A stretch of DNA of 28,186 bases from a virus. The notes beneath the pieces were generated by a model, which made no database searches, was not told the DNA's origin, and saw only the letters and a list, made by a program, of their open reading frames with translations. Numbering within the stretch: position 1 is the first letter of the stretch; every line of letters starts with the position of its first letter. Shown piece by piece: positions 2,832 through 27,599 of the stretch. The stretch is from IMG/VR virus record IMGVR_UViG_3300021420_000104, positions 1 to 28,186 of that record. One strand, 5' to 3'. A program made the position numbers and the translations under genes.

Positions 2832-3467
2832 TCAATCCTTCTTCGGCGGCTTGAGTTTCTTGAGGGTCTTGATGTGCTCCTCGCGGGTATCGAGCACCCA
2901 CTGGTCGAGCGCCTTGTGCCCATGCTTGAGGCTGCCGAACTTCTGAATGATCTTCTCGGGCGGGATCACGATCTCGCCGCCGGCCGCAATGATCGGCGTT
3001 GGCTTGCCGGCATGCTCGGCGCCGCCGCGAGCAGACATGTTGCGCGGCCGTGGCGTGAGATTGCCTAGATGCGGGATTTGCGGACGTGCGGCGTGCAACG
3101 GCATCTGCTGCGAGCCGTAAGGTCCCATCTTGAACATCTTGTTGACGATGTTCGCGCCGGCCAGCGAATTGCCCTGCCCTAGCGCAGCGACATGATCTGC
3201 CGGCAGCACATAGGCGCCGCCGGAGACTGAGATCGGCAGCTTGTCCGTTCTTCCGGGGACCGGCGAATGCAGGAAGCCCTGATGCGTCTGTGCGCGGAAA
3301 GCGTTCTTCTCGTAGAAAGTCGGCGTTACGCCGCCAGCGGCGTGGCCGTACTTACGCGCATTGGAAAGCGCAGCCGCGACCGCTTGCTTCTGCGGATGGC
3401 CAGCGTGGACCATCTCGGAAATGTTCTGTGAGACAGCCTCGCGGCTGCCTGACTTGATAAGCGGCAT
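2832..3467 (-). CDS. conserved phage protein, function unknown
   Basis: A 211-residue protein. The N terminus (MPLIKSGSREAVSQNISEM, then GHPQKQAVAAALSNAR) is a widespread phage sequence of unknown function. Later segments ISVSGGAYVLPADHVAALGQ and IIAAGGEIVIPPEKI are two Gly-rich repeats of similar design (GGxYVLPAD versus GGEIVIPPE), also seen in related phage proteins. A lysine-rich tail ends in KPPKKD. No enzyme motif was recognised. The start is firm because MPLIKSGS is the conserved beginning, yet there is no Shine-Dalgarno sequence: palindrome A lies only 4 nt upstream and the ATG is part of its arm. It opens the last minus-strand unit. Confidence 0.75.
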   Translation of the reverse strand: MPLIKSGSREAVSQNISEMVHAGHPQKQAVAAALSNARKYGHAAGGVTPTFYEKNAFRAQTHQGFLHSPVPGRTDKLPISVSGGAYVLPADHVAALGQGNSLAGANIVNKMFKMGPYGSQQMPLHAARPQIPHLGNLTPRPRNMSARGGAEHAGKPTPIIAAGGEIVIPPEKIIQKFGSLKHGHKALDQWVLDTREEHIKTLKKLKPPKKD

Positions 3468-3502
3468 GAAATGAACATACGCTCATTTCTTGTGTCGCGC
3501 AA
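3468..3502 (-). promoter_or_regulatory. palindrome A, operator-like element
   Basis: Core at 3472-3485: TGAAC-ATAC-GCTCA on the plus strand. On the coding strand the left arm is CAAGAAATGAGC and the right arm GTTCATTTCATG, matching at 11 of 12 positions if one G-U pair is allowed. It fills the 35-bp gap between the collar gene stop and the next start, and the right arm ends in the start codon itself. One of six copies (A-F). Operator, promoter or RNA hairpin cannot be told apart from sequence alone. Confidence 0.7.
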
Positions 3503-8234: not shown

Positions 8235-8947
8235 CGGCGGTAATAGCCTCCGAGACCAGGCGTGACGTAGAGCGGCGTCCACTCGGTATCTTCGGCCGCC
8301 GAGATCGACCAGGCTTCGTCGCGATCGACCTTGCGCTGCGCCTCCAGGTCCGGCCGGTAGATGCGCGCGAGACGGTGCGCCAGATCAGCCGTGATCGCAT
8401 CAAAGAAACGGTAAGGCAGCTCGACGTTCTGTCCGTTCAAAACCTGCGCGTCTTGCACCTGCCGCGCGCGGTAATAGAAGAAGTCGTAGGGGAACGCTCC
8501 GTCTGGAACCAGATAGAAGGTCACGGTCGGCGAGATCAGCCGATCGAACCAATACTGCGATGGGAAACCCTGCGTGCCCTTGGTCGAGATCGCCGCGTAT
8601 TCGTCGCGGCTGATCGGATACATGTAACGATCGAGCGTCGGGCTGGTCTGGTAGCGAATGAAGGCGGACAAGATCATCCGCGTTTCGGCTGGGATCGAAT
8701 AGGTCGCCGTGCCCGCGATCAGCGGGATCGACTGCAGGTCGATGGTCCAAAGGTTCTGCCCCGGCATGGTGTTGAACCGCACCAAGGCGAGGTTCAATTC
8801 CATGATCGCGCGCTGCATCTGCGTCTGTTCGATTTCGGTCGGGCGCACCTGAATGCGATCAAACGCATTGAGGATGAACTCGCCGCCGGTTGGCGAGAAA
8901 TTGAAGGTGCCCGACGTCTGGACAACTGGGTTGAAGGGGTTGCTCAC
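8231..8947 (-). CDS. head-tail connector candidate
   Basis: A 238-residue protein. It opens MSNPFNPVVQTSGTFNFSPT and continues with helices carrying VRPTEIEQTQMQRAIMELN. Segments NLWTIDLQSIPL and GTATYSIPAETRMILSAFI, then GFPSQYWFDRL and TVTFYLVPDG, are strongly conserved in podophage proteins next to portal-adaptor genes. A final helix (FFDAITADLAHRLARIYRP) ends the fold. It is probably a head-closure or connector part; the exact ring is not known to me. The start is GTG at 8947, overlapping the previous stop as GTGA. Its stop overlaps the zinc-ribbon gene start, so this stretch is translationally coupled. Confidence 0.65.
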   Translation of the reverse strand: MSNPFNPVVQTSGTFNFSPTGGEFILNAFDRIQVRPTEIEQTQMQRAIMELNLALVRFNTMPGQNLWTIDLQSIPLIAGTATYSIPAETRMILSAFIRYQTSPTLDRYMYPISRDEYAAISTKGTQGFPSQYWFDRLISPTVTFYLVPDGAFPYDFFYYRARQVQDAQVLNGQNVELPYRFFDAITADLAHRLARIYRPDLEAQRKVDRDEAWSISAAEDTEWTPLYVTPGLGGYYRR

Positions 8948-9228
8948 GAGATCAACCTCAGAGAACCCGTGGTCGGGCTGGCCTGCCCCGGCGCCGAGAT
9001 CGAATAGTTGGTGATGCCGAGCGCAGCTACGCCGGTTCCCCAGGTCGCCGTGAAGAACGATCCGGATGGCAACATGCCGATCGTCGCGATCGTGGTGACG
9101 ATGCTGTTGGACGACAATGGATAGGTGACCGTCAGCGTCGCTGACGACGGCACGGTCAGCGCGTTAGTGGAGTCGAAGAACTCCACCGTGAACTGCACCG
9201 TCGATCCGGTCGTGACATTGATCGGCAT
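8944..9228 (-). CDS. small beta-rich virion protein, 94 residues
   Basis: A 94-residue protein made almost wholly of alternating hydrophobic and Ser/Thr residues (STVQFTVEFFDSTNAL, then SATLTVTYPL), which predicts one immunoglobulin-like sandwich. It is the first gene after palindrome B. The segment just before ATG 9228 is GCGGGG, which may serve as ribosome site but is also one arm of a 9-bp inverted repeat (9229-9237 with 9283-9291) that encloses the palindrome. Initiation could therefore be controlled by RNA folding. Its stop overlaps the following GTG start. Role unknown; a decoration or spacer protein is possible. Confidence 0.65.
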   Translation of the reverse strand: MPINVTTGSTVQFTVEFFDSTNALTVPSSATLTVTYPLSSNSIVTTIATIGMLPSGSFFTATWGTGVAALGITNYSISAPGQASPTTGSLRLIS

Positions 9229-9291
9229 GCCCCGCTATAGCATGGGTCGCACAAGAAATGAACACGCGATCATATCTTGATTTAGCGGGGC
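9229..9291 (-). promoter_or_regulatory. palindrome B nested in a 9-bp inverted repeat
   Basis: The inner palindrome has its core at 9259-9272, TGAAC-ACGC-GATCA. On the coding strand its arms are CAAGATATGATC and GTTCATTTCTTG. The outer arms GCCCCGCTA (9229-9237) and TAGCGGGGC (9283-9291) are perfect inverted copies. On the coding strand the downstream outer arm ends directly at the ATG of the 94-residue gene and contains its GCGGGG ribosome-site candidate. In RNA a two-tier hairpin could hide the start; in DNA it could be a cruciform operator. It begins immediately after the T-tract of the upstream terminator. Confidence 0.65.
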
Positions 9292-9408: not shown

Positions 9409-11160
9409 TCATGAGGCCGGGACGATCGAGATGGAGACGCGCGCACCGGCAATAATTGGGACCGGGAAGCCGGAGACGGGAACGGTGACAGTGACCGGGA
9501 AGCCGGATACGGTCGGGCTGACGGTTACCGGCGAGCCGGAGACGGCCGGGGTGACGACGATTGGAACGCCAATTTCGGCGCCCGTGAATTTTAGCTCTCG
9601 CGCGCCAGCCTCGCCGCTGATGACGCGGTTAAATTCCGTGCCGCCGCCGAGAAATACGTCATGGTTATTATCGGTTGCGTCGAGGTCGGCGGTCGCTGTC
9701 GGGTTGGGCCGCAACTGCGTTGGCGCGGCGAAAAACTGCTGCAGGTGGGCGCCGAGTCCCGGCTTGACGCGGACCGGCTCGGTGAGCGCTGCGAACCACG
9801 AGAACGGCGTGACAACGGTTGGTTCGGGAACGTAGGCGGTGTACTGCTGTGCCATCGGCATGGCGGTCGGCTTGGTGCGGACCGGCTCACTCAGTGCCGC
9901 GAACCACGAGAAGGGAATGATGGTCAGCGGGTCGGGCGAGTAAGCCAGGAATTGCTGCAGATGCGGACCAAGGCCCGGTTTCACGCGGACCGGCTCGCTC
10001 AACGGCATGAACCAGCCGAACGATGGGACAGCCGGCGGAGCAGCCGGAACGAAGACCATGCCGGTCCACGGGAACGATATCGATCCGGACGTTCCGCCGC
10101 TGAACATGTAATTAATCAGGTCGCTCGTTCCGAAAGTATCCGAATGCGTCGTATCCTCGAAAGACCCGGTCGTGCCTGCGGCGATCGTGAGTAGCTGATT
10201 GACGCTGACGGAATTGACCCGGAAATTGGATGTAAAGGTCCCGCTCATGCTGTTGACGTTGACGAAGCCCCGCATGCGCGAAGTCGTCCCGCCATTCGGG
10301 ATCGACCGCGCAAGCGTGGCCTCGGTCGTTACCGGCGCGGCATAGCCGTAGAAGGGGCCGACGAATCGGTTGCTCGCGTTGAAGGTAAGAGAGCTGTGCT
10401 GGCCTCCGGGGAGTTCACTGGTTGTCGAACTATAATTGAACGAGCATCCCGCCGTCCCTCCGAGCGAGGAACCGCCGCTGCTCCATTCATACGCGAACGT
10501 GTTGCCCGACACGAGAGCGTCGCTGTTCGTCGTATCCTCGAAAACGCCGGTTGCCCCGGCCGTCACGGTCACCGTCATGGCGCCAGCCACGGCATTTTTG
10601 ACCGAGGTGAAGATGTCGTTGGTGGCAGAGGTATTGCTAAACAGCGAGACGGTCAGATTTTGGGCGGTCCCAGGAGCCCTGATCAAATACGGGGTACGCA
10701 CCCCGGTGGCCCATTGGGCGCCGAAGTACGAAAATTGAGGGCTGTTGAGCAGACCAACCGTTGAAGCCTCGTGAAACCCGAATGTCCCACTATCGGCAGT
10801 AAACAATCCGGTCAGCCAGACGAACGTGAACGGCGGCGAAGTGCTATCATTGCATTGAATATCGAGGGTGTCGCCGGCTGCCCAGTGATCGGAGGCCCCC
10901 GAGGCAAAGGTCCCGCTGGTCCCGTTGGCGAGCGTAAAGGTTACGTTGCTGTTGACGCCGTTTTTCCGGAAGTTGACGCTTCTCGAGGTCCCGGTCGCGC
11001 CGACGTTGATCGAGACATTCGAGATCGTTCCCGCTGAGCGGACGGGGAGCGCCCTGTCGGATTCGGTGGGGAAGGTGCCGAGATCGAGAATCGCGCTAAA
11101 ATAACTGGGATTAACCGAGACGGACGTATTTCGATCGCCTCCAATAACGGTCGCACCCAT
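9409..11160 (-). CDS. repeat-containing virion/receptor-binding candidate
   Basis: A 583-residue protein. Residues 1-370 contain three related beta modules: GTISNVSINV to DHWAAGDTLDIQ (about 45-105), NDIFTSVKNA to NTFAYEWSSGG (about 181-230) and NVNSMSGTFT to DLINYMFSGG (about 301-356). Residues 380-487 hold three exact-length 36-residue repeats beginning at 380, 416 and 452 (FGWFMPLSEPVRVKPGL, FSWFAALSEPVRTKP, FSWFAALTEPVRVKPGL). Near 536-570 VSGxPVTV-type motifs recur three times. The modular beta build and late position suggest a fibre, spike or decoration protein; receptor binding is an inference. It ends its unit at a strong terminator. The start is ATG at 11160, three nt after the small-gene stop. 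Confidence 0.7.
   Translation of the reverse strand: MGATVIGGDRNTSVSVNPSYFSAILDLGTFPTESDRALPVRSAGTISNVSINVGATGTSRSVNFRKNGVNSNVTFTLANGTSGTFASGASDHWAAGDTLDIQCNDSTSPPFTFVWLTGLFTADSGTFGFHEASTVGLLNSPQFSYFGAQWATGVRTPYLIRAPGTAQNLTVSLFSNTSATNDIFTSVKNAVAGAMTVTVTAGATGVFEDTTNSDALVSGNTFAYEWSSGGSSLGGTAGCSFNYSSTTSELPGGQHSSLTFNASNRFVGPFYGYAAPVTTEATLARSIPNGGTTSRMRGFVNVNSMSGTFTSNFRVNSVSVNQLLTIAAGTTGSFEDTTHSDTFGTSDLINYMFSGGTSGSISFPWTGMVFVPAAPPAVPSFGWFMPLSEPVRVKPGLGPHLQQFLAYSPDPLTIIPFSWFAALSEPVRTKPTAMPMAQQYTAYVPEPTVVTPFSWFAALTEPVRVKPGLGAHLQQFFAAPTQLRPNPTATADLDATDNNHDVFLGGGTEFNRVISGEAGARELKFTGAEIGVPIVVTPAVSGSPVTVSPTVSGFPVTVTVPVSGFPVPIIAGARVSISIVPAS
9700..10023 (-). repeat. three 108-bp in-frame repeats (36 residues each)
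   Basis: Three tandem units of exactly 108 bp, encoding residues 380-415, 416-451 and 452-487 of the virion protein. Each contains WF, then SEPVR or TEPVR, KP and a Gln pair. Units 1 and 3 are closest (VKPGLGPHLQQF and VKPGLGAHLQQF) while unit 2 has diverged. Such tandem protein repeats vary in number by recombination, which makes this a likely length-variable part. Confidence 0.8.
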
Positions 11161-13238: not shown

Positions 13239-13622
13239 TCAGTTCCCTGCCGTGATGGTGGCCGCCGTGATGGCCACGGTCTGCCCAGCGGTGATGTTGT
13301 TGGTCGGCGTCATTATGATGTCGAAAGAAGTGCTCCCGGTTCCGACCGTCAATCCAAAGATCGCGACGTTGCCGGCGGAGTCCTCGCAGCGCGCGGCGGT
13401 TACCTTGCCGGAGCCAGCGGCCGAGGGATCGATCAGCGAAAGCCCGTTGAAGACGAGGGTGTTATTGCTGACGGTCGCGCATGGTCGCGACAATTGGAAC
13501 GAGGAAACGACGCTGCCGCCGCTCAACAGCCGGATAAAGCCGTTGCTTCCCCCGGCGTCGATCGCATTGGCGACGACCTGCAATCGACTCGTCAGGATAG
13601 GGTTTGAATACTCGACTGGCAT
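13239..13622 (-). CDS. small beta-rich virion protein, 127 residues
   Basis: A 127-residue protein beginning MPVEYSNPILTSRLQVVANA. It continues with DAGGSNGFIRLLSGGSVV, a pattern common in phage virion-cluster proteins of unknown function, and ends with a Thr/Ala-rich strand (AGQTVAITAATITAGN). It opens the unit after palindrome C. There is no Shine-Dalgarno sequence; the last bases of the palindrome arm are the start codon itself, so initiation may be leaderless or controlled by folding. Its stop is directly followed by the next ATG (TGAATG). Confidence 0.65.
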   Translation of the reverse strand: MPVEYSNPILTSRLQVVANAIDAGGSNGFIRLLSGGSVVSSFQLSRPCATVSNNTLVFNGLSLIDPSAAGSGKVTAARCEDSAGNVAIFGLTVGTGSTSFDIIMTPTNNITAGQTVAITAATITAGN

Positions 13623-13646
13623 GATATGATCATTCGTTCATATCAT
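13621..13646 (-). promoter_or_regulatory. palindrome C, operator-like element
   Basis: Core at 13627-13640: TGATC-ATTC-GTTCA. Arms extend to ATGATATGATC and GTTCATATCAT, matching at 10 of 11 positions, the longest near-perfect copy. It lies in a 35-bp gap. The start codon of the 127-residue gene overlaps the outer end of one arm, and 4 nt separate the core from the ATG, exactly as in palindrome A. Confidence 0.75.
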
Positions 13647-13657
13647 CAGCGCAACGG

Positions 13658-16416: not shown

Positions 16417-17115
16417 TTACGTGCTGCGCGGCGTGAGAGAGAGACGGTCGCAGTTGTTCATGCGGACAACGACGATGTTCGCCGGGTTGGAGTTATCGAG
16501 TCCGTTGACGATTCCGCCCGAGACCGACGAGTTGAAGTTGACGTTGCCGGTCGCGCCACCGCCCGGCGCATAAGCCGAGTAGAAGTCGACGAGACGGAAT
16601 GGCAGCGCGCTTGAGCCTCCGTAGGAGGTAGCCTGCAACGTGATGTTCGAATAACCGGTCAGGGTGTTGCCGGTGGTGCTGCCGGTCGAGATCGAGATGT
16701 TGAGGCCGATATAGCTCGACGTGATCGCGGCGTTGGTCGACGCCTGCACGAGGAAAAGCTCTTCGGGATCGTCGACAACGTAGGCTTTGATGTCGCCGGT
16801 CGAACCGGTGATCGTGCCCTGATACGAATTGCTCCAGACCACGCGCTGAACGCTCGGCTGGTACTGGTAGCAACCTTGGAAGATGCCGCGGACCAAGAAG
16901 CCGCTGGAATTGTTGCTAAGCTGCACCGACGTGACGTAGGCGCCGGAGTTGTTGGTGCCGAAGCCGCTCGACGTCACCACCGGATCGCCACGGAAAATAT
17001 ATCCGGCGTCAGTCGACGCGATCCAGACCTCGGTCATGCCGGCGGTCGGAGACCCGCCATCCATGCGCTTGAAGGTCTGGAAGCCCAGAGTTGGAGAACC
17101 AAGGGTGTTAGTCAT
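16417..17115 (-). CDS. capsid-associated protein
   Basis: A 232-residue protein starting at ATG 17115 (MTNTLGSPTLGFQTFKRMDG), with TTTTGGAG about 10 nt upstream. A TTG at 17130 is in frame but less likely. Internal motifs TEVWIASTDAGYIFRGDPVV and GIFQGCYQYQPSVQ, then AYVVDDPEELFLVQ, recur in proteins just before Mu-like capsid genes. Ser/Thr-rich beta structure dominates the rest. A decoration or capsid-stabilising role is inferred by position and pattern. It is the first gene after palindrome D and its attached hairpin, with a 5' leader of about 100 nt before the start. Confidence 0.65.
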   Translation of the reverse strand: MTNTLGSPTLGFQTFKRMDGGSPTAGMTEVWIASTDAGYIFRGDPVVTSSGFGTNNSGAYVTSVQLSNNSSGFLVRGIFQGCYQYQPSVQRVVWSNSYQGTITGSTGDIKAYVVDDPEELFLVQASTNAAITSSYIGLNISISTGSTTGNTLTGYSNITLQATSYGGSSALPFRLVDFYSAYAPGGGATGNVNFNSSVSGGIVNGLDNSNPANIVVVRMNNCDRLSLTPRST

Positions 17116-17195
17116 CGTGGACGGCTCCAAAATGAGATCAGCGCGACGACACGTCGGCGATCATCAGTCCGAGCCTCCACGGCGTGCGGAGGGCA

Positions 17196-17224
17196 ATCAT
17201 TAGGGCCAGCGCGGCCCTAATGAT
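17196..17224 (-). repeat. 12-bp perfect inverted repeat in the leader before the capsid genes
   Basis: Arms ATCATTAGGGCC (17196-17207) and GGCCCTAATGAT (17213-17224) are perfect inverted copies around a 5-nt loop. It immediately follows palindrome D on the coding strand and lies about 80 nt before the ATG at 17115. There is no T-tract on either side, so it is not a standard intrinsic terminator; it could be an mRNA stability stem, a second operator half or an attenuator. Confidence 0.75.
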
Positions 17225-17225
17225 C

Positions 17226-17239
17226 TGACCATTAGTTCA
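17226..17239 (-). promoter_or_regulatory. palindrome D, operator-like element
   Basis: Core TGACC-ATTA-GTTCA. On the coding strand the upstream arm is CAAGAAATGAAC, identical to the best-conserved half-site, while the downstream arm GGTCAGATC has diverged (about 7 of 12 pairs). It lies in the 150-bp gap between the conserved protein ending at 17266 and the capsid-associated gene. Confidence 0.6.
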
Positions 17240-17265
17240 TTTCTTGAAGTTCGTCAAGCCGGCGG

Positions 17266-20129: not shown

Positions 20130-20387
20130 TCAGACTTTCTCCAGTTGACGCTCTATGTTTTTAACGATGCGCGCATACGCTGCATCGGACCCATCTGGGT
20201 CGTTTGTGCTGAACAAATCATCGAGGTCGCCCTCGGTCGCGATGAAATCATCATTCGGTCTACCCACGATTTTGACGCCATCGCGGTATGCTCCGTGCAG
20301 ATGCTCGCGTTCGTGTGCCGGGTAAAAGTTCACTCCATACCTCGCGAACATCTTTTCGAAACGCACAAGATCACGCTCTCGTATCAT
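20130..20387 (-). CDS. small protein downstream of the portal gene, 85 residues
   Basis: An 85-residue protein beginning MIRERDLVRFEKMFARYGVN, with AHEREHLHGAYRDGVKIVGR and an acidic second half (EGDLDDLFSTNDPDGSD), ending in a helix (AYARIVKNIERQLEKV). No family was recognised. The ATG overlaps the portal stop (ATGA), so its translation depends on portal translation. Single-domain, soluble, no signal peptide. Confidence 0.6.
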   Translation of the reverse strand: MIRERDLVRFEKMFARYGVNFYPAHEREHLHGAYRDGVKIVGRPNDDFIATEGDLDDLFSTNDPDGSDAAYARIVKNIERQLEKV

Positions 20388-23062
20388 TTGCCTTCCTTTG
20401 GCTTTGGTTTCAGCATCGCCTTTGTCTTGGCGTCGGTTAGCTTCTTGGTGTTCGCGAGATCGGCCTTGTGCTTCTCGGTCTGCATCTTGAGCTTGGCGTC
20501 GTTGGTCTTCATGCCCTGCTCGTGCTTCTCGCCTTCGAGCTTGGTCTTCTGCTGTTCGGCCGGGCCGATCGCTTGCGCCTTCGCCTCTGCCATCTTGCGT
20601 TCGTTTTCCAAGCTGGCCTGATGCTTCTCGCGCTCAAGCTGGATGTCCTGCGCGTGCTGTTCGCGCTGCGCCTGCAGCTCTTGCTGATGCTTGGCCTGGT
20701 TGGCGGCGAGATCGAGCTGATGCTTCTGCGCATCCTGCTGCAGCCCGGCTTGTGCCTCGACGTGTCCTTTGATGATGTCGTGCTGCGCCTGCTGCTGCTT
20801 GACCTGCATGTCGTTCTGCGCGGTCTGGTTGTCGCGCTGGATATCATGCGCGTGGATAATCATCTCGTTCTTGAGCCGCATCTGCTCAAGCTGCATCTCA
20901 AACTGCTGCTGACGCTCCTTCGAGGCGCGCTCGGCCGCGTCGTTCTGCATCTGCGCCTGCGTCTGCTGCTGATCCATGGCGAGCTTCGCCTGGTCGATCT
21001 GCGCCTGCTGCGCCTCGGCCTGTGCCTTCGCCTGAATTGCGACCATGCGCGGATCAGGCGGCGGCTGCGCCTCCTGTGCGTTCATCAAGCCTTCGGCGTC
21101 GATGTCGGCGGTCCGCAAGATGCGCTTCAACGCATTGCGGCGGTCCATGTCCAGCGGGTACTTCTGGACAAGCATATCGATGATCGTCGCCTTCGCGATC
21201 CGATGCAGGCTGGTCGGGTTGTTTGGATCGGCGACCGGGACCAGCTCTTTCTCTTCAAGAGCCTTCTTGAACTGCTCGACGGTCCACCGCCGGCTCGGCC
21301 GTTTGTTGTGCCGCCAGAACGCCTCCGGGTCTTCCTTGAAGCGTTCCTTGAGAAGCTGAAATTCCTGCGCCTGCGCCGCGTGCAACCGCTTGTGCACGGA
21401 GTCCATGATCTTGGTGGCCTGCTCGATCATGGCCATGGTGGTGCCGACAGGAACGTCCTGCTTACCCTCGCCGATCTGCAGCTCAGCCGTCTGGCCAAGA
21501 CGCTGGCCAACTTCCTCGATGTGAACGCCGAGTTGTGTAAACGCCGCGCCGGTTTCCTTGTAAGGAAGCGGCATGAACGCTTCCTGGATTTTCATGCCGG
21601 GCGGCACGTCAACCGGGAAACCGCCGCCGGGCGGCACGCGCATCTGATTGGTGTTCTGCCGACCAGCCGGCTTGGCGAACAGAAAGCCCGGGAAGTTCGC
21701 GAACATCCCGTTGTCGATCATGATGCGCCAGATCGCGGTCAGCGCCATGGTGACGTTGCCGAGCAGGTGCAACAGACCGAGGCCGTAGAAGCCGAGGCCG
21801 CGAATGAACGGAAACTGGACGAAGAACTGCTTGGTCAGCGCTTCTTCGTCATCCTCATCCCAATTGCGCCGTACCGCGAGAACCTGCCGGCTGCGCTTTT
21901 CGACCGTGACGACGTAGGGCAGCGGGAGACCTTTGCCCTTGAACTTCTTGGGCGCGAACTTTTCGATATCAAGTTCGCAATAGCACTCGTAAACATCGTA
22001 ATCGGCGTCCTTTGGCTGCGCCGGCATCGGCTTGTAGCCGCCGATCGCCGCCTTCTCCTTTTCGGGAGCCGTGACGTCTGTTGACGGGTCCGGCGGCGCA
22101 AGCGAAACATCGCGGTAATGTCCGGCGATCTGCATCCGCTTTAGCCAGGACGGACGCATCTTGATGCGATGGGTTACCCGACCGCAGTTGCGGATATCGG
22201 TTGCCGAGTCCGACACGATAAGATCGTCGGCATCCACGGATTCCGACACCGGACGATTGCGCAGCGGGCAGTTGTAGACCTTCTTGAAGCCGTCGCCGCC
22301 AAAGCCGATGTAGAACATCATGCGATCGGTGTCGGGCACGTATTCGGTCGCCGTCACCGTCAAATAATGGTTCATGTCCTTTTCGAGAGCCGCGGCCAGC
22401 TCATCCAACTGCTCGCCTTCCGGCGTCGGCGCAGGCGGGGGTGGTGCGGGCGGTGCGCCCTGCGGCGAAACACCTTGTGGCGCAGGGGGTTGTGGCGCGG
22501 GTGGAGCGGCCCCGGCCGCCGGCGCAAAGGGATTCGGCTGCGGCGCGTCGGGGCGCATCGGCAGATCGTTGCGGACCTTGACCGGGCCGGAGGCAGGAAG
22601 AAGCTCGCCGAGCGCGTTGGCTTGGAAGTGAATGGTTGCTTCAAGCAGAAGCGGATGCCGGATCGACGACATGCCCTCCAGCGGCGCCGACGCGGTGCCA
22701 AGATCACCCCGCGGCTCTTCCAGCTTAAGGCCGAGCAGCCGAATGCCGGCGGCACGCGCTTCAAGCCAGTCACGGCGCGAGTCCTGATCCAGCGCGATGC
22801 CGGTCAAAAGCTCGGATGCGATGCGCGTCAGCTCATCGTCGTCGATTTCGTCGGCAATGTTCCGATAGAAACCGTCATCGGTCGATGGTTTGGCGCCGCG
22901 GCTTTCGTCAAAGGTGACGCTTCCGTCGCCGTGCTCGATCCGGGTCGCACCATCGACAACTGAAACCGAAGGCCCGTCGTCATCGCCAAGGTCAACCTCA
23001 GACGGCCCGAGGGTGTCCCAGGGCTGTTCAGGATCGACGATGCGGAGCGGCGACTTTGCCAT
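20384..23062 (-). CDS. portal protein (long, with Gln-rich C-terminal coiled coil)
   Basis: An 892-residue protein. MSSIRHPLLLEATIHFQANA and LGELLPASGPVKVRNDLPMR are the hallmarks of large portals of short-tailed phages. A Pro/Ala-rich stretch (about 175-215) follows, then the clip-stem core with WIYNCP-like and LGFYGLGLLHLLGNVTMALT segments. Residues from about 680 to the end are a charged, Gln-rich coiled coil (QAKAQAEAQQAQIDQAKLAM, QMQLEQMRLKNEMI). The portal forms the dodecameric vertex through which terminase packs DNA; the tail-like extension could run into the head as a barrel. It is the first gene after palindrome E and has no Shine-Dalgarno sequence at ATG 23062. Confidence 0.8.
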   Translation of the reverse strand: MAKSPLRIVDPEQPWDTLGPSEVDLGDDDGPSVSVVDGATRIEHGDGSVTFDESRGAKPSTDDGFYRNIADEIDDDELTRIASELLTGIALDQDSRRDWLEARAAGIRLLGLKLEEPRGDLGTASAPLEGMSSIRHPLLLEATIHFQANALGELLPASGPVKVRNDLPMRPDAPQPNPFAPAAGAAPPAPQPPAPQGVSPQGAPPAPPPPAPTPEGEQLDELAAALEKDMNHYLTVTATEYVPDTDRMMFYIGFGGDGFKKVYNCPLRNRPVSESVDADDLIVSDSATDIRNCGRVTHRIKMRPSWLKRMQIAGHYRDVSLAPPDPSTDVTAPEKEKAAIGGYKPMPAQPKDADYDVYECYCELDIEKFAPKKFKGKGLPLPYVVTVEKRSRQVLAVRRNWDEDDEEALTKQFFVQFPFIRGLGFYGLGLLHLLGNVTMALTAIWRIMIDNGMFANFPGFLFAKPAGRQNTNQMRVPPGGGFPVDVPPGMKIQEAFMPLPYKETGAAFTQLGVHIEEVGQRLGQTAELQIGEGKQDVPVGTTMAMIEQATKIMDSVHKRLHAAQAQEFQLLKERFKEDPEAFWRHNKRPSRRWTVEQFKKALEEKELVPVADPNNPTSLHRIAKATIIDMLVQKYPLDMDRRNALKRILRTADIDAEGLMNAQEAQPPPDPRMVAIQAKAQAEAQQAQIDQAKLAMDQQQTQAQMQNDAAERASKERQQQFEMQLEQMRLKNEMIIHAHDIQRDNQTAQNDMQVKQQQAQHDIIKGHVEAQAGLQQDAQKHQLDLAANQAKHQQELQAQREQHAQDIQLEREKHQASLENERKMAEAKAQAIGPAEQQKTKLEGEKHEQGMKTNDAKLKMQTEKHKADLANTKKLTDAKTKAMLKPKPKEGK

Positions 23063-23081
23063 GCGGTACTAGATGAAGGAA

Positions 23082-23095
23082 TGAACATGAGTTCA
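23082..23095 (-). promoter_or_regulatory. palindrome E, operator-like element
   Basis: Core TGAAC-ATGA-GTTCA is a perfect 5+5 palindrome around 4 bp. The coding-strand left arm ATGATATGAAC is as in palindrome C, but the right arm decays after GTTCATTCC. It fills the 43-bp gap between the terminase stop and the portal start, 19 nt from the ATG. Confidence 0.7.
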
Positions 23096-23105
23096 TATCA
23101 TGCCT

Positions 23106-24806
23106 TCACGCGGGATACAATGCGCCCTGCCGAGGTCGGTATTTGGTCTCGTCCGCAGTCTCGAAAGCCCGCTCTTCCTTGCGCTGTGCCCAGCCGGCGC
23201 GGCGCAGATAGATCAGCGCCATGCTGCAGGTATCGGCCAAGTCATCGTGCACCGCGCGCGGCACCATCGCGCACTGCTTCATCATCAAGTCGGCCCATTC
23301 CTTGTCTGGCGCGTAGATCAATCCTTCCGCGAACAGATGCACCACGGTCTGCAGCCGGGCCGACTTGTCGGGAGACTTGATAAAGCCGGCGCGGGGATCG
23401 ACGAGTTGAATGCCGAAATCGAACAGCCCGAACAGACGCGCCAACTCTTGGCTGACCGAGTGGCCGGCTGCCTTGTCTTCGATGACCAGGTGATCAACCT
23501 TGAACTTGTAGTCACAGAAGCCGCCGCGGCAGTCGTCGGCAACGCGTTTGACCAGGTCATGGATGCGCATGCGCTCCGACCAGCAATAGATCAGGAATAT
23601 CTTGGGATTGCGGTGCTTATCGCGAAACACGCCCCAGATCGAAAGCGCCGAAGGATCGTTCTCTTCCTTCTCGGTATAAGCGGTGTCCAGCGCCGCGATG
23701 ACATACTCGAAACCAGGATACTGGCCCGGCTCGACGCCGTGATCCTTGGCGGCCTCATCATCCCATTGCTGCCACCACTCATAGCGGATGATGCCGCCGC
23801 CGCGGGGCGCCGGCTCTTGCTGATACTGTCCGGCATAGGCGTAAGGACCAAGCTCCAGCTCCAGCTTGGCGACTTCGCTTGCCGGGTATCGATCCACCCA
23901 AAGCAGTTCGTTTTCTTCGCTGCGCCGATCAATCCAAAAGATATCGTCATCATCGATATCGTTGATATCATCGCCGATGAAGGTCTTGATCTGGTTGCCT
24001 ACCCACGCGTTGACGTGCTGGCACGGCACATAGGACATGGGCACACAGAAATGAACATAGCTGGCCAGCCGGCCGGCTTTGCGTTCGCTATTGTCCTTGG
24101 CCAGGATCGCGCCGGACAGGTCGCCTTCGTGAACCCGCTGCATGACCACGATCATGGCGCCGGTCTTACGGTTGTTGAGGCGGCTCGGCATGGTTTCCGA
24201 CCACCAGTTAACAGTGTCCTCGCGGACCTTTTCCGACTCCGCTTCCTTGACCAGGTGGGGGTCGTCGGCGACCAGGATGTCGGCGCCCCAGCCGGTCGCC
24301 TTGGCGTCAACCGACGACGCCATCCGGTAGCCGCCCTTGTCGTTTTCGAAGTGGCCCTGGTTTTCACGGATCAGCTTGAAACGATTACCCCAGAGCGCTT
24401 GGTACCAGCGCGACTGGATCAGCCGGCGGCATTTAAGCGAGTGCTCCAGCGACAGTTGCTCGGCATACGAGGCATAGAAGAACGAGACCTGCGGACCGAG
24501 CAGCGCCCCGCGCTCCCGCTGCGCCCATACCCATGCGCAGAAGCAGATCGAGATGATGAAGGTCTTGCCGGTTCGCGGCGGCTCGTTCAGCAGCAGTCGC
24601 GAAATGTGACCGCGTGCGACCGCCTCCATATGGTTGCAGATGTCCTCCAGATGCCAATTATCGGAGAACTCCGCGGGATCGACGACAGACCATGCCGCCT
24701 TGCAGAACTCGTAAAAACTGTTCTCAAGCTTCTCGGCTTCGCGAATTTGCTTAATGCGGCGCTTGGCGGCGATCACCTGCCACAGCGCCGTCTGGTCGAT
24801 GGTCAT
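23106..24806 (-). CDS. terL: terminase large subunit
   Basis: A 566-residue protein, the ATP-driven DNA packaging motor. The ATPase has Walker A NEPPRTGKT (74-82), Walker B ILVADDPH (177-184) and a coupling motif near VVMQRVHEGDL (220-230). The nuclease domain has LDTAY with Asp374, IEDKAAG with Glu443/Asp444, and HDDLADT with Asp521/Asp522, all expected metal ligands. Length fits the family. No small terminase is visible. A TATACT box lies at 24821-24816, only 9 nt before the ATG, and there is no Shine-Dalgarno sequence, so a leaderless transcript is possible. It is the first minus-strand gene after palindrome F. Confidence 0.9.
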   Translation of the reverse strand: MTIDQTALWQVIAAKRRIKQIREAEKLENSFYEFCKAAWSVVDPAEFSDNWHLEDICNHMEAVARGHISRLLLNEPPRTGKTFIISICFCAWVWAQRERGALLGPQVSFFYASYAEQLSLEHSLKCRRLIQSRWYQALWGNRFKLIRENQGHFENDKGGYRMASSVDAKATGWGADILVADDPHLVKEAESEKVREDTVNWWSETMPSRLNNRKTGAMIVVMQRVHEGDLSGAILAKDNSERKAGRLASYVHFCVPMSYVPCQHVNAWVGNQIKTFIGDDINDIDDDDIFWIDRRSEENELLWVDRYPASEVAKLELELGPYAYAGQYQQEPAPRGGGIIRYEWWQQWDDEAAKDHGVEPGQYPGFEYVIAALDTAYTEKEENDPSALSIWGVFRDKHRNPKIFLIYCWSERMRIHDLVKRVADDCRGGFCDYKFKVDHLVIEDKAAGHSVSQELARLFGLFDFGIQLVDPRAGFIKSPDKSARLQTVVHLFAEGLIYAPDKEWADLMMKQCAMVPRAVHDDLADTCSMALIYLRRAGWAQRKEERAFETADETKYRPRQGALYPA

Positions 24807-24815
24807 GCCGGCTAA

Positions 24816-24852
24816 AGTATACCGTCATCGCCATGATGTGAACACTTGATCA
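24816..24852. promoter_or_regulatory. palindrome F with divergent terL / RHH promoter candidates
   Basis: Core at 24839-24852: TGAAC-ACTT-GATCA. On the minus strand a -10-like TATACT (24821-24816) sits 17 nt from TGTTCA in the palindrome (a weak -35). On the plus strand TTGATC (24846-24851) can act as a -35 with a weak TTACAT -10 at 24868-24873. The palindrome would thus cover the -35 region of both divergent promoters, a natural arrangement for repression. The palindrome is seen; the promoters are inferred. Confidence 0.5.
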
Positions 24853-24881
24853 GACCTTCGGCCGCTGTTACATGCGTTAAC

Positions 24882-25040
24882 ATGAACGAACATAAACGCA
24901 TCAGTTGGATCAGCAGGATCACCATCAAGCCGGCCGAGCGCGACGAACTCCGGGAAATATCCAAGGAGATTCGGATTCCGGTCTCTAAACTGATCGGGAC
25001 CGCGATCACCGACTTCCTATCGCTTAGGAGCACGGCATGA
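24882..25040 (+). CDS. ribbon-helix-helix transcription regulator, 52 residues
   Basis: A 52-residue protein starting at ATG 24882. WISRITIKP (9-17) forms the DNA-contacting strand, AERDELREISKEI (18-30) the first helix, RIPV the turn and SKLIGTAITDFLSL (35-48) the second helix, the classic Arc/CopG/MetJ-type fold. Such proteins dimerise and bind short palindromes as pairs of dimers. It is the first gene of the plus-strand operon, directly facing palindrome F, and its own start codon lies in CATGAACGAACAT, which carries ATGAAC half-site sequence. It is a good candidate for the regulator of palindromes A-F. No Shine-Dalgarno sequence is seen. It overlaps the next gene by ATGA. Confidence 0.75.
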   Translation: MNEHKRISWISRITIKPAERDELREISKEIRIPVSKLIGTAITDFLSLRSTA

Positions 25041-25258
25041 AACGCGACGAAATGCTCCAGCTACGCGATCAGCTCATCCGCGGTAACCCGCCGTACTGGG
25101 TGGACGACATGAACAATCTGCGGCGCGAGAGGGGCGGAACGCGCGGCATTGAAGAGTTGAAGGCGATCGGGGATCACAACCCCGACTCGGCTTCGATCCG
25201 CCTGGCCCTCGAAACCTGCCTCAGGCTGGTCGACCATCTGTTGGAGCGGATGCGGTGA
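25037..25258 (+). CDS. small protein of unknown function, 73 residues
   Basis: A 73-residue protein beginning MKRDEMLQLRDQLIRGNPPY. It has a charged middle (NNLRRERGGTRGIEELKAIG) and a terminal helix with LETCLRLVDHLLERM. The family is not recognised. Overlaps on both sides (ATGA before, GTGA after) show that it belongs to the operon. Its short helical build is compatible with a regulator partner or scaffold, but nothing specific supports this. Confidence 0.6.
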   Translation: MKRDEMLQLRDQLIRGNPPYWVDDMNNLRRERGGTRGIEELKAIGDHNPDSASIRLALETCLRLVDHLLERMR

Positions 25259-25455
25259 AAGATGCCAAAGAAGATGTGCACTACGGCCCTGGCCACGTGC
25301 ATCATCACTGCGGACCGGTCTTTCATGACGATAAGTTCTATTGCCGGTTTTTCATCCCCTCTGCCGGCAAGATCGGGACCTGCGAGAAGGTCAAAGGCGA
25401 CATCGAACCGGCCTACGGTTGCGACCTCTACCAACGAGTATCCAAATCCTCATGA
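25255..25455 (+). CDS. small four-Cys protein, HiPIP-like pattern
   Basis: A 66-residue protein starting at GTG 25255, overlapping the previous stop (GTGA). Cys19, Cys30, Cys43 and Cys56 are spaced 10, 12 and 12 residues apart, and a His cluster (HVHHH, 14-18) lies next to the first Cys. FYCRFFIPSAGKIGTCEKVK and GDIEPAYGCDLYQ resemble small phage proteins reminiscent of high-potential iron-sulfur proteins. A metal or iron-sulfur site is likely from the residues; which one cannot be told. Possible role: redox or structural partner of the enzymes that follow, a guess. Confidence 0.6.
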   Translation: MKDAKEDVHYGPGHVHHHCGPVFHDDKFYCRFFIPSAGKIGTCEKVKGDIEPAYGCDLYQRVSKSS

Positions 25456-25964
25456 CCACGATCGCGACCGCGCGCTTGATCTTGCGGGAACTGAGCAAGC
25501 CCACACGGAACAACCTGGCCTGGCTAAAGGACCCGGATGTCGTTCGCTATTCCCAGCAACGGCATCAGTTTCACACGCTTTCTTCCCAGCACCGGTATGT
25601 CAGCTCGTTTGCCGGCGCCTCGAAGCTTTGGGGCATTTATTTCGTCGAGACCGGCGAGCACGTCGGCAACCTGTCCGCCACGCACGATGAACCCAACAAC
25701 GTATGCGACGTCGGCATCATGATCGGCGAGAAGAAGTATTGGGGGAAAGGGCTGGGTCGCGAAGCCTGGAAAGCGGCGTGCGACTGGTTGATCAGCAAAG
25801 ACGGCGGCAACATGCGCAAGCTTGAGGCGGGCTGTATGCGACCAAACGTCGCCATGCTGCGTATCATTTCGAACAGCGGCTTCAAGCAAGAGGGCGAGCT
25901 GCTGAACCACTTCCTGCTCGATGGCGCGCCGGTCTCGGGATTACTGTTCGGGAGAATGAAGTGA
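25452..25964 (+). CDS. RimJ/RimL-type GNAT acetyltransferase
   Basis: A 170-residue protein starting at ATG 25452 (MTTIATARLILRELSKPTRN), overlapping the previous stop (ATGA). WLKDPDVVRYSQQRH, DVGIMIGEKKYWGKGLGREA (acetyl-CoA loop with a GKGLG motif) and EAGCMRPNVAMLRIISNSGF are clear RimL-family features. The ending LLDGAPVSGLLFGRM is also typical. Related proteins acetylate ribosomal proteins or amino sugars. Because it sits in a cluster with a methyltransferase, an oxidoreductase and a cytidylyltransferase, I favour a sugar or amino-sugar substrate, as in PseH-like enzymes. It differs from the virion-block GNAT at 2192-2704 in family. Confidence 0.8.
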   Translation: MTTIATARLILRELSKPTRNNLAWLKDPDVVRYSQQRHQFHTLSSQHRYVSSFAGASKLWGIYFVETGEHVGNLSATHDEPNNVCDVGIMIGEKKYWGKGLGREAWKAACDWLISKDGGNMRKLEAGCMRPNVAMLRIISNSGFKQEGELLNHFLLDGAPVSGLLFGRMK

Positions 25965-26140
25965 AAGAACAGGCCACGATCGAGGCAATTTTCAACCTCC
26001 GAGTCAGAAACAATGACCCGTGGAAACGCTTGATGCAGATCGCGCTCAAGCACGCGCCGGAAGAAACCAAGGCCGTTCTGCGTGAGATCAGTGGCAATGA
26101 CGCCGCTATCACCACGCTGATGCAGGAACTTGTGCGATGA
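25961..26140 (+). CDS. small protein, 59 residues
   Basis: A 59-residue protein starting at GTG 25961, overlapping the previous stop (GTGA) and ending at TGA 26140, which overlaps the next ATG. Translation begins MKEQATIEAIFNLRVRNNDP and continues with WKRLMQIALKHAPEETKAVL; all helix, mixed charge. I recall similar small genes in alphaproteobacterial phages and prophages, beside sugar genes, but no function. Tight coupling on both sides argues that the product is needed with the acetyltransferase and methyltransferase. Confidence 0.65.
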   Translation: MKEQATIEAIFNLRVRNNDPWKRLMQIALKHAPEETKAVLREISGNDAAITTLMQELVR

Positions 26141-26739
26141 GACAGGCCGATATCTTCCTTGGGTCCGAAGGCAACGCCTGGTTTGCGCGAAACCGCGATG
26201 GGCTTGGCGTGCGCGACCCGGTTTCCGAGGCCATCGATAAGATGGGGATTATCCCGAGTAGCGTTCTTGAGATCGGCTGCGCCAATGGCTGGCGGCTGGC
26301 TCGCCTGCGCGACAAGTACGGATGCGATATTATGGGCGTTGAACCGAGCATGGATGCCTGCCTTGAGGCAGCGAGATTGCGCGTTCCGGTCCACCAAGCG
26401 ACCGCATCCACGTTACCGGTGCCGCCGAAACGTTTCGACATCATCATTTTTGGCTTCTGCCTTTATTTAACCGATCCGGACGAATGGTTCCGGATCGCGG
26501 CCGAGGCGAACTGTGTCCTCAAGGACTTCGGGCATATCGTCATTCATGACTTCGAGGCATGGGGCCAATTCTTCGCGCGACGTTATGAGCACCGCGATGG
26601 TGTCATGTCGTATCACTTTGACTTTGCCAAGCTTTGGCTCGCTCACCCCTGGTACAGCGTGGTAGTCCGGCGCCTCGATGAAACCGACAACTCGGTGACC
26701 ATCCTGAAGAAGTCCCCCACCGTTCAGGTGCGGGAATGA
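26137..26739 (+). CDS. SAM-dependent methyltransferase, class I
   Basis: A 200-residue protein. VLEIGCANGWRL (43-54) is motif I of the Rossmann SAM site, GVEPS (67-71) supplies the acidic residue after the second strand, and FDIIIFGFCLYL (104-115) is motif IV. GHIVIHDF follows. Family members with this small size act on small molecules, sugars or lipids. Here the likely substrate is a nucleotide-sugar or its precursor, or a glycan, given its neighbours. Start ATG 26137 overlaps the previous stop. No membrane segment or signal. Confidence 0.75.
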   Translation: MRQADIFLGSEGNAWFARNRDGLGVRDPVSEAIDKMGIIPSSVLEIGCANGWRLARLRDKYGCDIMGVEPSMDACLEAARLRVPVHQATASTLPVPPKRFDIIIFGFCLYLTDPDEWFRIAAEANCVLKDFGHIVIHDFEAWGQFFARRYEHRDGVMSYHFDFAKLWLAHPWYSVVVRRLDETDNSVTILKKSPTVQVRE

Positions 26740-27599
26740 AGATCGGCGTGGTCGGATACGGATCGATCGGACAACGGCATGCTGCGAATGCCACCAAGCT
26801 CGGGCACGAGGTCATCGTCTATGATCCGATGTTGCAGCACAACGACGTCAAATACGAGCGCGAAATCTACGAGCAAGCCGATGCTGTCGTGATTGCGACA
26901 CCATCCGGCTGCCACGAAGCAGGTCTGAGGGCCTGCATCGAGCGCGGCAAGCACGTGCTCGTGGAAAAGCCAATCTCGGTTAGCCTTGGCCAGCTCGAAA
27001 CCTTGCTCAAGGTTGCCGACGAAAAGAGGCTTGTCGTCATGATGGGCAACAACCTGCGCTTCCACCCCTGCGTCCAAGAGATCAAGCGCAGCGAGATATC
27101 GTGGAGGCTTTGGGCCAATTTTATCTGCTCTACCACGACGGATAAGCCGGGCTACTTGTCCGATGGCGTTACTCTTTGCACGGGAAGTCATGAAGTTGAC
27201 CTTGCGCTATACCTGCTCGGTCCTGCGCAAGTCCTTACCGCGACCGGGGACGAGAAGATGATGGATTTCGTCCTGCTGCATGACAGCGGCGCGCGTTCAT
27301 CCTTTCATCTCGACTTTGTAACTGGACGAGAGGTCCGTCAATTCTGGATCGGGTACGAGCGCAAATGCATATTGGTCGATCTTCCCGCGAGATCGATCAA
27401 AACCCACTTCGTCGACGGTGATATCAACACATGGCGATATCCCGGCAGCTATGACTACGACTACGAACGCGAAATGAGGGACTTTATACGTCAGGCCGAA
27501 GGAGCGCCCGCGATCTATGGCAATAGGGCCGCAACCGGCGAAGACGGACTGGCTGCACTGAAAGTCCTGTTAGCAGTAAAAAAGATGGCCGGTATATGA
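26736..27599 (+). CDS. Gfo/Idh/MocA-family oxidoreductase
   Basis: A 287-residue protein. The NAD(P) site is GVVGYGSIGQRHAANA (4-19) with GYGSIG as the dinucleotide loop, and Asp30 after the second strand suggests NAD preference. VVIATPSGCHEAGLRA, then GKHVLVEKPIS with the family EKP motif (77-79), is diagnostic. TGSHEVDLALYLLG, around residue 150, carries the expected His/Asp of the active site. Homologues act on UDP- or CMP-linked sugars in surface polysaccharide synthesis. Its position before the SpsF-like gene suggests the same pathway. Start ATG 26736 overlaps the methyltransferase stop (ATGA). Confidence 0.85.
   Translation: MKIGVVGYGSIGQRHAANATKLGHEVIVYDPMLQHNDVKYEREIYEQADAVVIATPSGCHEAGLRACIERGKHVLVEKPISVSLGQLETLLKVADEKRLVVMMGNNLRFHPCVQEIKRSEISWRLWANFICSTTTDKPGYLSDGVTLCTGSHEVDLALYLLGPAQVLTATGDEKMMDFVLLHDSGARSSFHLDFVTGREVRQFWIGYERKCILVDLPARSIKTHFVDGDINTWRYPGSYDYDYEREMRDFIRQAEGAPAIYGNRAATGEDGLAALKVLLAVKKMAGI

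Follow-up and report, generated by a model that had tools for sequence, protein, structure and literature searches.

A very small ribbon-helix-helix protein as the probable repressor of dispersed late-gene promoters in a group of tailed phages

The 52-residue ribbon-helix-helix (RHH) protein encoded beside terL in the virus record analysed here is, judging from sequence, probably both an autorepressor and a repressor of dispersed late promoters, which it would shut by occlusion. The window, by which we mean the whole stretch analysed, comprised the entire record of 28,186 bases and harboured an imperfect 28-bp palindrome (family D2) in six copies, which start at positions 3465, 9252, 13620, 17219, 23075 and 24832, each of them heading a late-strand gene. 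In tailed phages the switching-on of late genes is commonly ascribed to an activator, an antiterminator or a phage polymerase; one very small repressor with matched operators over the late promoters would, if this reading is correct, be a compact alternative to late activation. The features concerned are as follows.

24882–25040, plus strand: RHH regulator gene (52 amino acids), identified by Pfam RHH_3, the PHROG Arc-like repressor family, the predicted fold, PDB fold matches and relatives situated upstream of terL
23106–24806, minus strand: terL, the proposed target (phrog_38, 1.6e-82)
25037–25258, plus strand: partner ORF (73 amino acids), sharing a 4-nt overlap with the RHH stop that is kept in many relatives
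24832–24859, no strand: dyad separating the RHH gene from terL and a proposed operator of each, overlapping candidate -35 boxes in both directions
23075–23102, no strand: dyad before the portal gene (20384–23062), with an equivalent dyad before portal in most relatives
17219–17246, no strand: dyad before a conserved structured leader and a putative virion gene
13620–13647, no strand: dyad at the start of a virion structural gene (13239–13622)
9252–9279, no strand: dyad before the gene at 8944–9228, with a terminator-like hairpin upstream and a CTATAG box downstream
3465–3492, no strand: dyad at the start of the gene at 2832–3467 (phrog_2423), found at the same position in the related records G001, G017 and G021

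The original prediction had placed an RHH regulator beside a palindrome and divergent from terL, and both the profile and fold matches and the layout agreed with it, in that the 24832 dyad separates the RHH gene from terL, which begins at 24806 on the minus strand. The RHH reading frame runs from an ATG at 24882 to a stop codon ending at 25040, with the translation MNEHKRISWISRITIKPAERDELREISKEIRIPVSKLIGTAITDFLSLRSTA. This protein was matched by the Pfam RHH_3 profile (PF12651; E-value 1.2e-6, 28.8 bits against a cut-off of 21.6) and by PHROG 3180, annotated ‘Arc-like repressor’ (1.6e-5). An AlphaFold2 model built from eight relatives (pLDDT 86.6) predicted an extended N-terminal stretch followed by two helices; the strand of RHH proteins forms only in the dimer. 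The top PDB fold matches of this model were the RHH proteins ORF56, PutA, CopG and Arc, with weak E-values (0.1–0.6) for a protein of this small size, and the solved structure nearest by sequence was also CopG, again weakly (E-value 0.056). By profile, predicted fold and fold search, the product is hence an RHH protein.

No relatives were found when the RHH protein alone was used as a query against viral contigs, and an alignment of its class A relatives was too diverse to serve as a search query. As a PF12651 search of the related phages missed diverged RHH genes, those of the relatives were retrieved with a profile built from six RHH proteins. The proteins so recovered formed two sequence classes, WxTRI and HLRIT-E, and RHH_5 was matched, mostly weakly, by four of the eight relatives in class A and four of the seven in class B. 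The partner ORF has the conserved pattern M.RDEM..LR...GDY...LLERMR, seen also at L096:747-926 on the minus strand, and matched no family in Pfam. It is also the neighbour in which the toxin of a type II toxin-antitoxin operon with an RHH antitoxin would be sought.

Each dyad consists of two half-sites of approximately CAWGAWATGAWC about a 4-bp centre, and both halves independently matched one half-site consensus, as is expected for a symmetric protein. With a scoring matrix built from relatives only, and without any window site, the six sites scored 23.0–34.4 bits, compared with 11.5 bits for the next position in the window and 20.9 bits for the top of 200 local shuffles, which bears out the earlier claim that six palindromes are present. 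That next position, a weak seventh site at 2814, straddles a gene junction and is not claimed. The letters ATGAAC, previously read as a half-site overlapping the RHH start, are present there, though this appears to be by chance, since the window contains ATGAAC or GTTCAT at 29 places and the second codon of related RHH genes specifies other residues. The leader that follows the 17219 dyad (about 17100–17218, minus strand) and precedes the putative virion gene is conserved and has a predicted GC-rich hairpin, with compensatory changes in 4 of 25 predicted pairs and no match in Rfam.

Related phage contigs were gathered by terL and portal searches, several being taken whole as pieces. A total of 64 dyads scoring at least 16 bits with a general matrix were identified in the window and these records, against 0.6 in shuffled sequence. 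On a crude ORF map 46 of the 64 were noncoding, relative to about 10% of random positions, and 39 had a late-strand start no more than 45 nt downstream, relative to 11% of random positions. Dyads were likewise found in five further records (L121–L124 and L127) that had been kept out of matrix building. No phage near-identical to the window was found in the phage collection searched, and a terL scan of bacterial genomes returned one distant Bradyrhizobium locus (34%). Amongst the distant terL and portal loci scanned that lack these dyads, no RHH gene of this set was found.

The RHH gene was found to travel with the dyads: of the 18 dyad-bearing records in which the region upstream of terL was covered, 17 have an RHH gene there in divergent orientation, and three pairs amongst these 17 are near duplicates. 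It was usually directly divergent from terL or from a small gene preceding terL. A related phage with the palindromes and without an RHH gene, the case named beforehand as contrary to the prediction, was encountered once, in G010; this record, an 18-kb fragment, has five dyads and no recognisable RHH gene within those 18 kb, and its partner gene is retained and faces terL. In other instances, G012 and G015 encoded an RHH protein with no recognisable dyad of this consensus, G021 and G022 had weak dyads at the RHH gene (11.6 and 12.9 bits), and in G008 and G009 an extra gene was situated between the RHH gene and the dyad. The extra gene of G008 (L014:902-1117, minus strand), which separates the RHH gene from the terL dyad, is Acb2/Tad1-like (PF24729, 1.7e-19). 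In G013 (L104:10100), another terL relative, which lacks these dyads, the region upstream of terL contains an RHH-like ORF and a palindrome, TAGTC-N8-GACTA, both unlike those described above; that this palindrome forms a repeated family was not borne out.

The operators were also found to differ between phages in a phage-specific manner. Half-site positions 11–12 and 7 were much more uniform amongst the sites of one phage than between phages (0/500 and 1/500 permutations), whilst positions 1, 3 and 5 gave no within-phage agreement of that kind. For instance, at positions 11–12 G007 had only AC and G001 mostly GG, and G017 never had C at position 12. Amongst the relatives, RHH identities ranged from 16% to 95%, relative to 69–96% for terL. 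With terL controlled, the correlation of RHH distance with operator distance (partial rho 0.22, p 0.034) is only suggestive that divergence of the RHH sequences weakly tracks that of the operators beyond terL; classes A and B also differed at half-site position 7 at a p of 0.03 that is uncorrected for many tests. It is possible, although we hold this tentatively and consider it rather doubtful, that this tailed-phage group holds its late programme with one RHH repressor of roughly 50 residues at many promoters, and that the repressor-operator code has diversified between relatives into distinct specificity groups, a possible basis for superinfection immunity acting on late genes. Diverged RHH/operator pairs would offer natural material for studying how specificity shifts in beta-ribbon recognition.

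Predicted sigma70-like boxes overlapped the dyads, with a mean best score, using E. coli weights, of 8.5 against 6.2 in shuffled sequence. The earlier placing of a palindrome over both -35 candidates was confirmed at 24832: the candidate terL promoter has its -35 (TTCACA, 24842–24837) inside the dyad and a -10 of TATACT at a spacing of 15, and the candidate RHH promoter, read by eye, has a -35 of TTGATC at 24846–24851 and a -10 of TTACAT at 24868–24873. Many terL sites had TTCACA as the -35 in the right half, and several relatives had TTGACA facing the RHH gene directly after the dyad. In many portal sites TTGTAT and TATGA were separated by 17 bp, the -10 lying in the left half, though TTGTAT also encodes conserved terL residues and its conservation is therefore not independent. 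The -10-like boxes, as read by eye, often ended 6–8 nt before the ATG, a proximity hinting at leaderless messages. Together, the co-occurrence in 17 of 18 records, the divergent layout, the phage-specific signatures and the promoter overlap lend good support to the reading, as first predicted, of an autoregulated RHH protein that may control dispersed late-gene operators; the argument from a half-site at the RHH start has been dropped from it.

Since the core promoter is covered at varying positions, repression by occlusion would be the mode of action, at the RHH gene included, and we infer the binding of the dyads by the 52-residue protein, repression through that binding and the way in which repression is lifted. 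The 28-bp dyad would be occupied through the beta ribbon of an RHH dimer, each site probably taking up two or more dimers. Occupation of 24832–24859 would cover the -35 regions of terL and of the RHH gene, resulting in autoregulation and in a closed terL, and occupation of the other five dyads would cover the -35 or -10 of the portal, virion and distal late-gene promoters. Late transcription may in this way be kept silent at the beginning of infection or in the prophage state; a tyrosine-recombinase match in two related records suggests that part of the group may be temperate. Each related phage would have its own RHH variant with a matching operator set, and repression would be lifted possibly via the coupled partner protein.

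An unlikely alternative to repression by the RHH protein is that the dyads are operators of another protein, be it a host regulator, a phage repressor encoded off the contig or the partner ORF product, and that the RHH protein controls something else. The window contig may be incomplete, and in the 18 kb of G010 five dyads and the partner ORF are retained with no recognisable RHH gene; however, a host regulator would not yield a half-site signature specific to each phage, an RHH gene accompanied the dyad in 17 of the 18 testable records, and the partner ORF matched no DNA-binding family. It is very improbable that the dyads serve as centromeres, partition sites scattered along the genome and bound by an RHH centromere-binding protein. 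Some partition proteins are of the RHH type and a phage-plasmid with scattered centromeres is known, but the dyads here keep closely to the starts and promoters of late genes. Several dyads touch or contain a start codon, as RNA hairpins at ribosome-binding sites might, yet the arms did not covary: real sites had 515 complementary cells, compared with 536 ± 10 after within-phage shuffling of the right halves. The absence of covariation marks the palindrome as a DNA dyad, and the RNA-hairpin idea, to which we give hardly any credence, was rejected.

Also quite unlikely is that the RHH protein binds the dyads and activates the late promoters, or both activates and represses by concentration. The late genes of many phages require an activator, and AvtR of the archaeal virus AFV6 has been reported as both activator and repressor, depending on concentration (PMC5569661). 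Activators usually require a fixed upstream position, whereas these dyads cover the -10, the spacer or the -35 at a varying distance from the start codon, which suits occlusion.

With repression by the RHH protein preferred, the nearest known systems may be compared. In the literature searched, the coverage of which was incomplete, no tailed phage was found described in which an RHH protein governs dispersed late-gene operators. SvtR of SIRV1 and AvtR, both small RHH proteins of viruses, act as repressors of their own genes and bind several other sites in the virus genome, the strongest SvtR site being at a structural gene (PMC5569661). The window RHH protein is like them in having candidate sites at its own promoter (the 24832 dyad) and at structural genes (portal and virion genes). 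They differ in that SvtR and AvtR belong to archaeal viruses with archaeal promoters, the main SvtR site lying about 80 nt from the promoter elements, whereas the window phage and its relatives are tailed phages in which the dyads overlap predicted bacterial-type promoter boxes of many late genes.

The original prediction had likened the sites to stoperators. In Cluster A mycobacteriophages one repressor acts at many genome sites, with phage-specific site motifs and cognate repressors (PMC6550527), and the window group shares with these the many dispersed sites and the phage-specific motifs. Stoperators are 13-bp, asymmetric and orientation-dependent, lie mostly away from promoters and block elongation, and the repressor bound to them is a monomeric two-domain HTH protein (PMC9283540, PMC6550527). 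The likeness did not survive this comparison, as the dyads are symmetric over 28 bp and situated at gene starts (39 of 64 within 45 nt upstream) with promoter-like boxes. On the best reading of these analogies, the window system would resemble SvtR and AvtR more than asymmetric stoperators.

The window protein is also like CopG of pMV158, the closest solved structure by sequence (weakly, as given above) and itself a very small autorepressor, and like Arc and Mnt of P22, RHH phage repressors of which Arc gives its name to the PHROG family and was amongst the fold matches. CopG, however, serves a plasmid copy-control operon and not a set of late viral promoters, whilst Arc and Mnt act in the immI region and not at dispersed late promoters.

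Two further features of the window were observed. Beside the RHH operon, positions 25341–27599 on the plus strand encode a GNAT acetyltransferase, a methyltransferase and a Gfo/Idh/MocA oxidoreductase, an unusual cargo for a phage. Short tandem-like repeats with 33-nt and 108-nt spacing occur at 9461–9570 and 9734–10030 on the minus strand, within the gene at 9409–11160.
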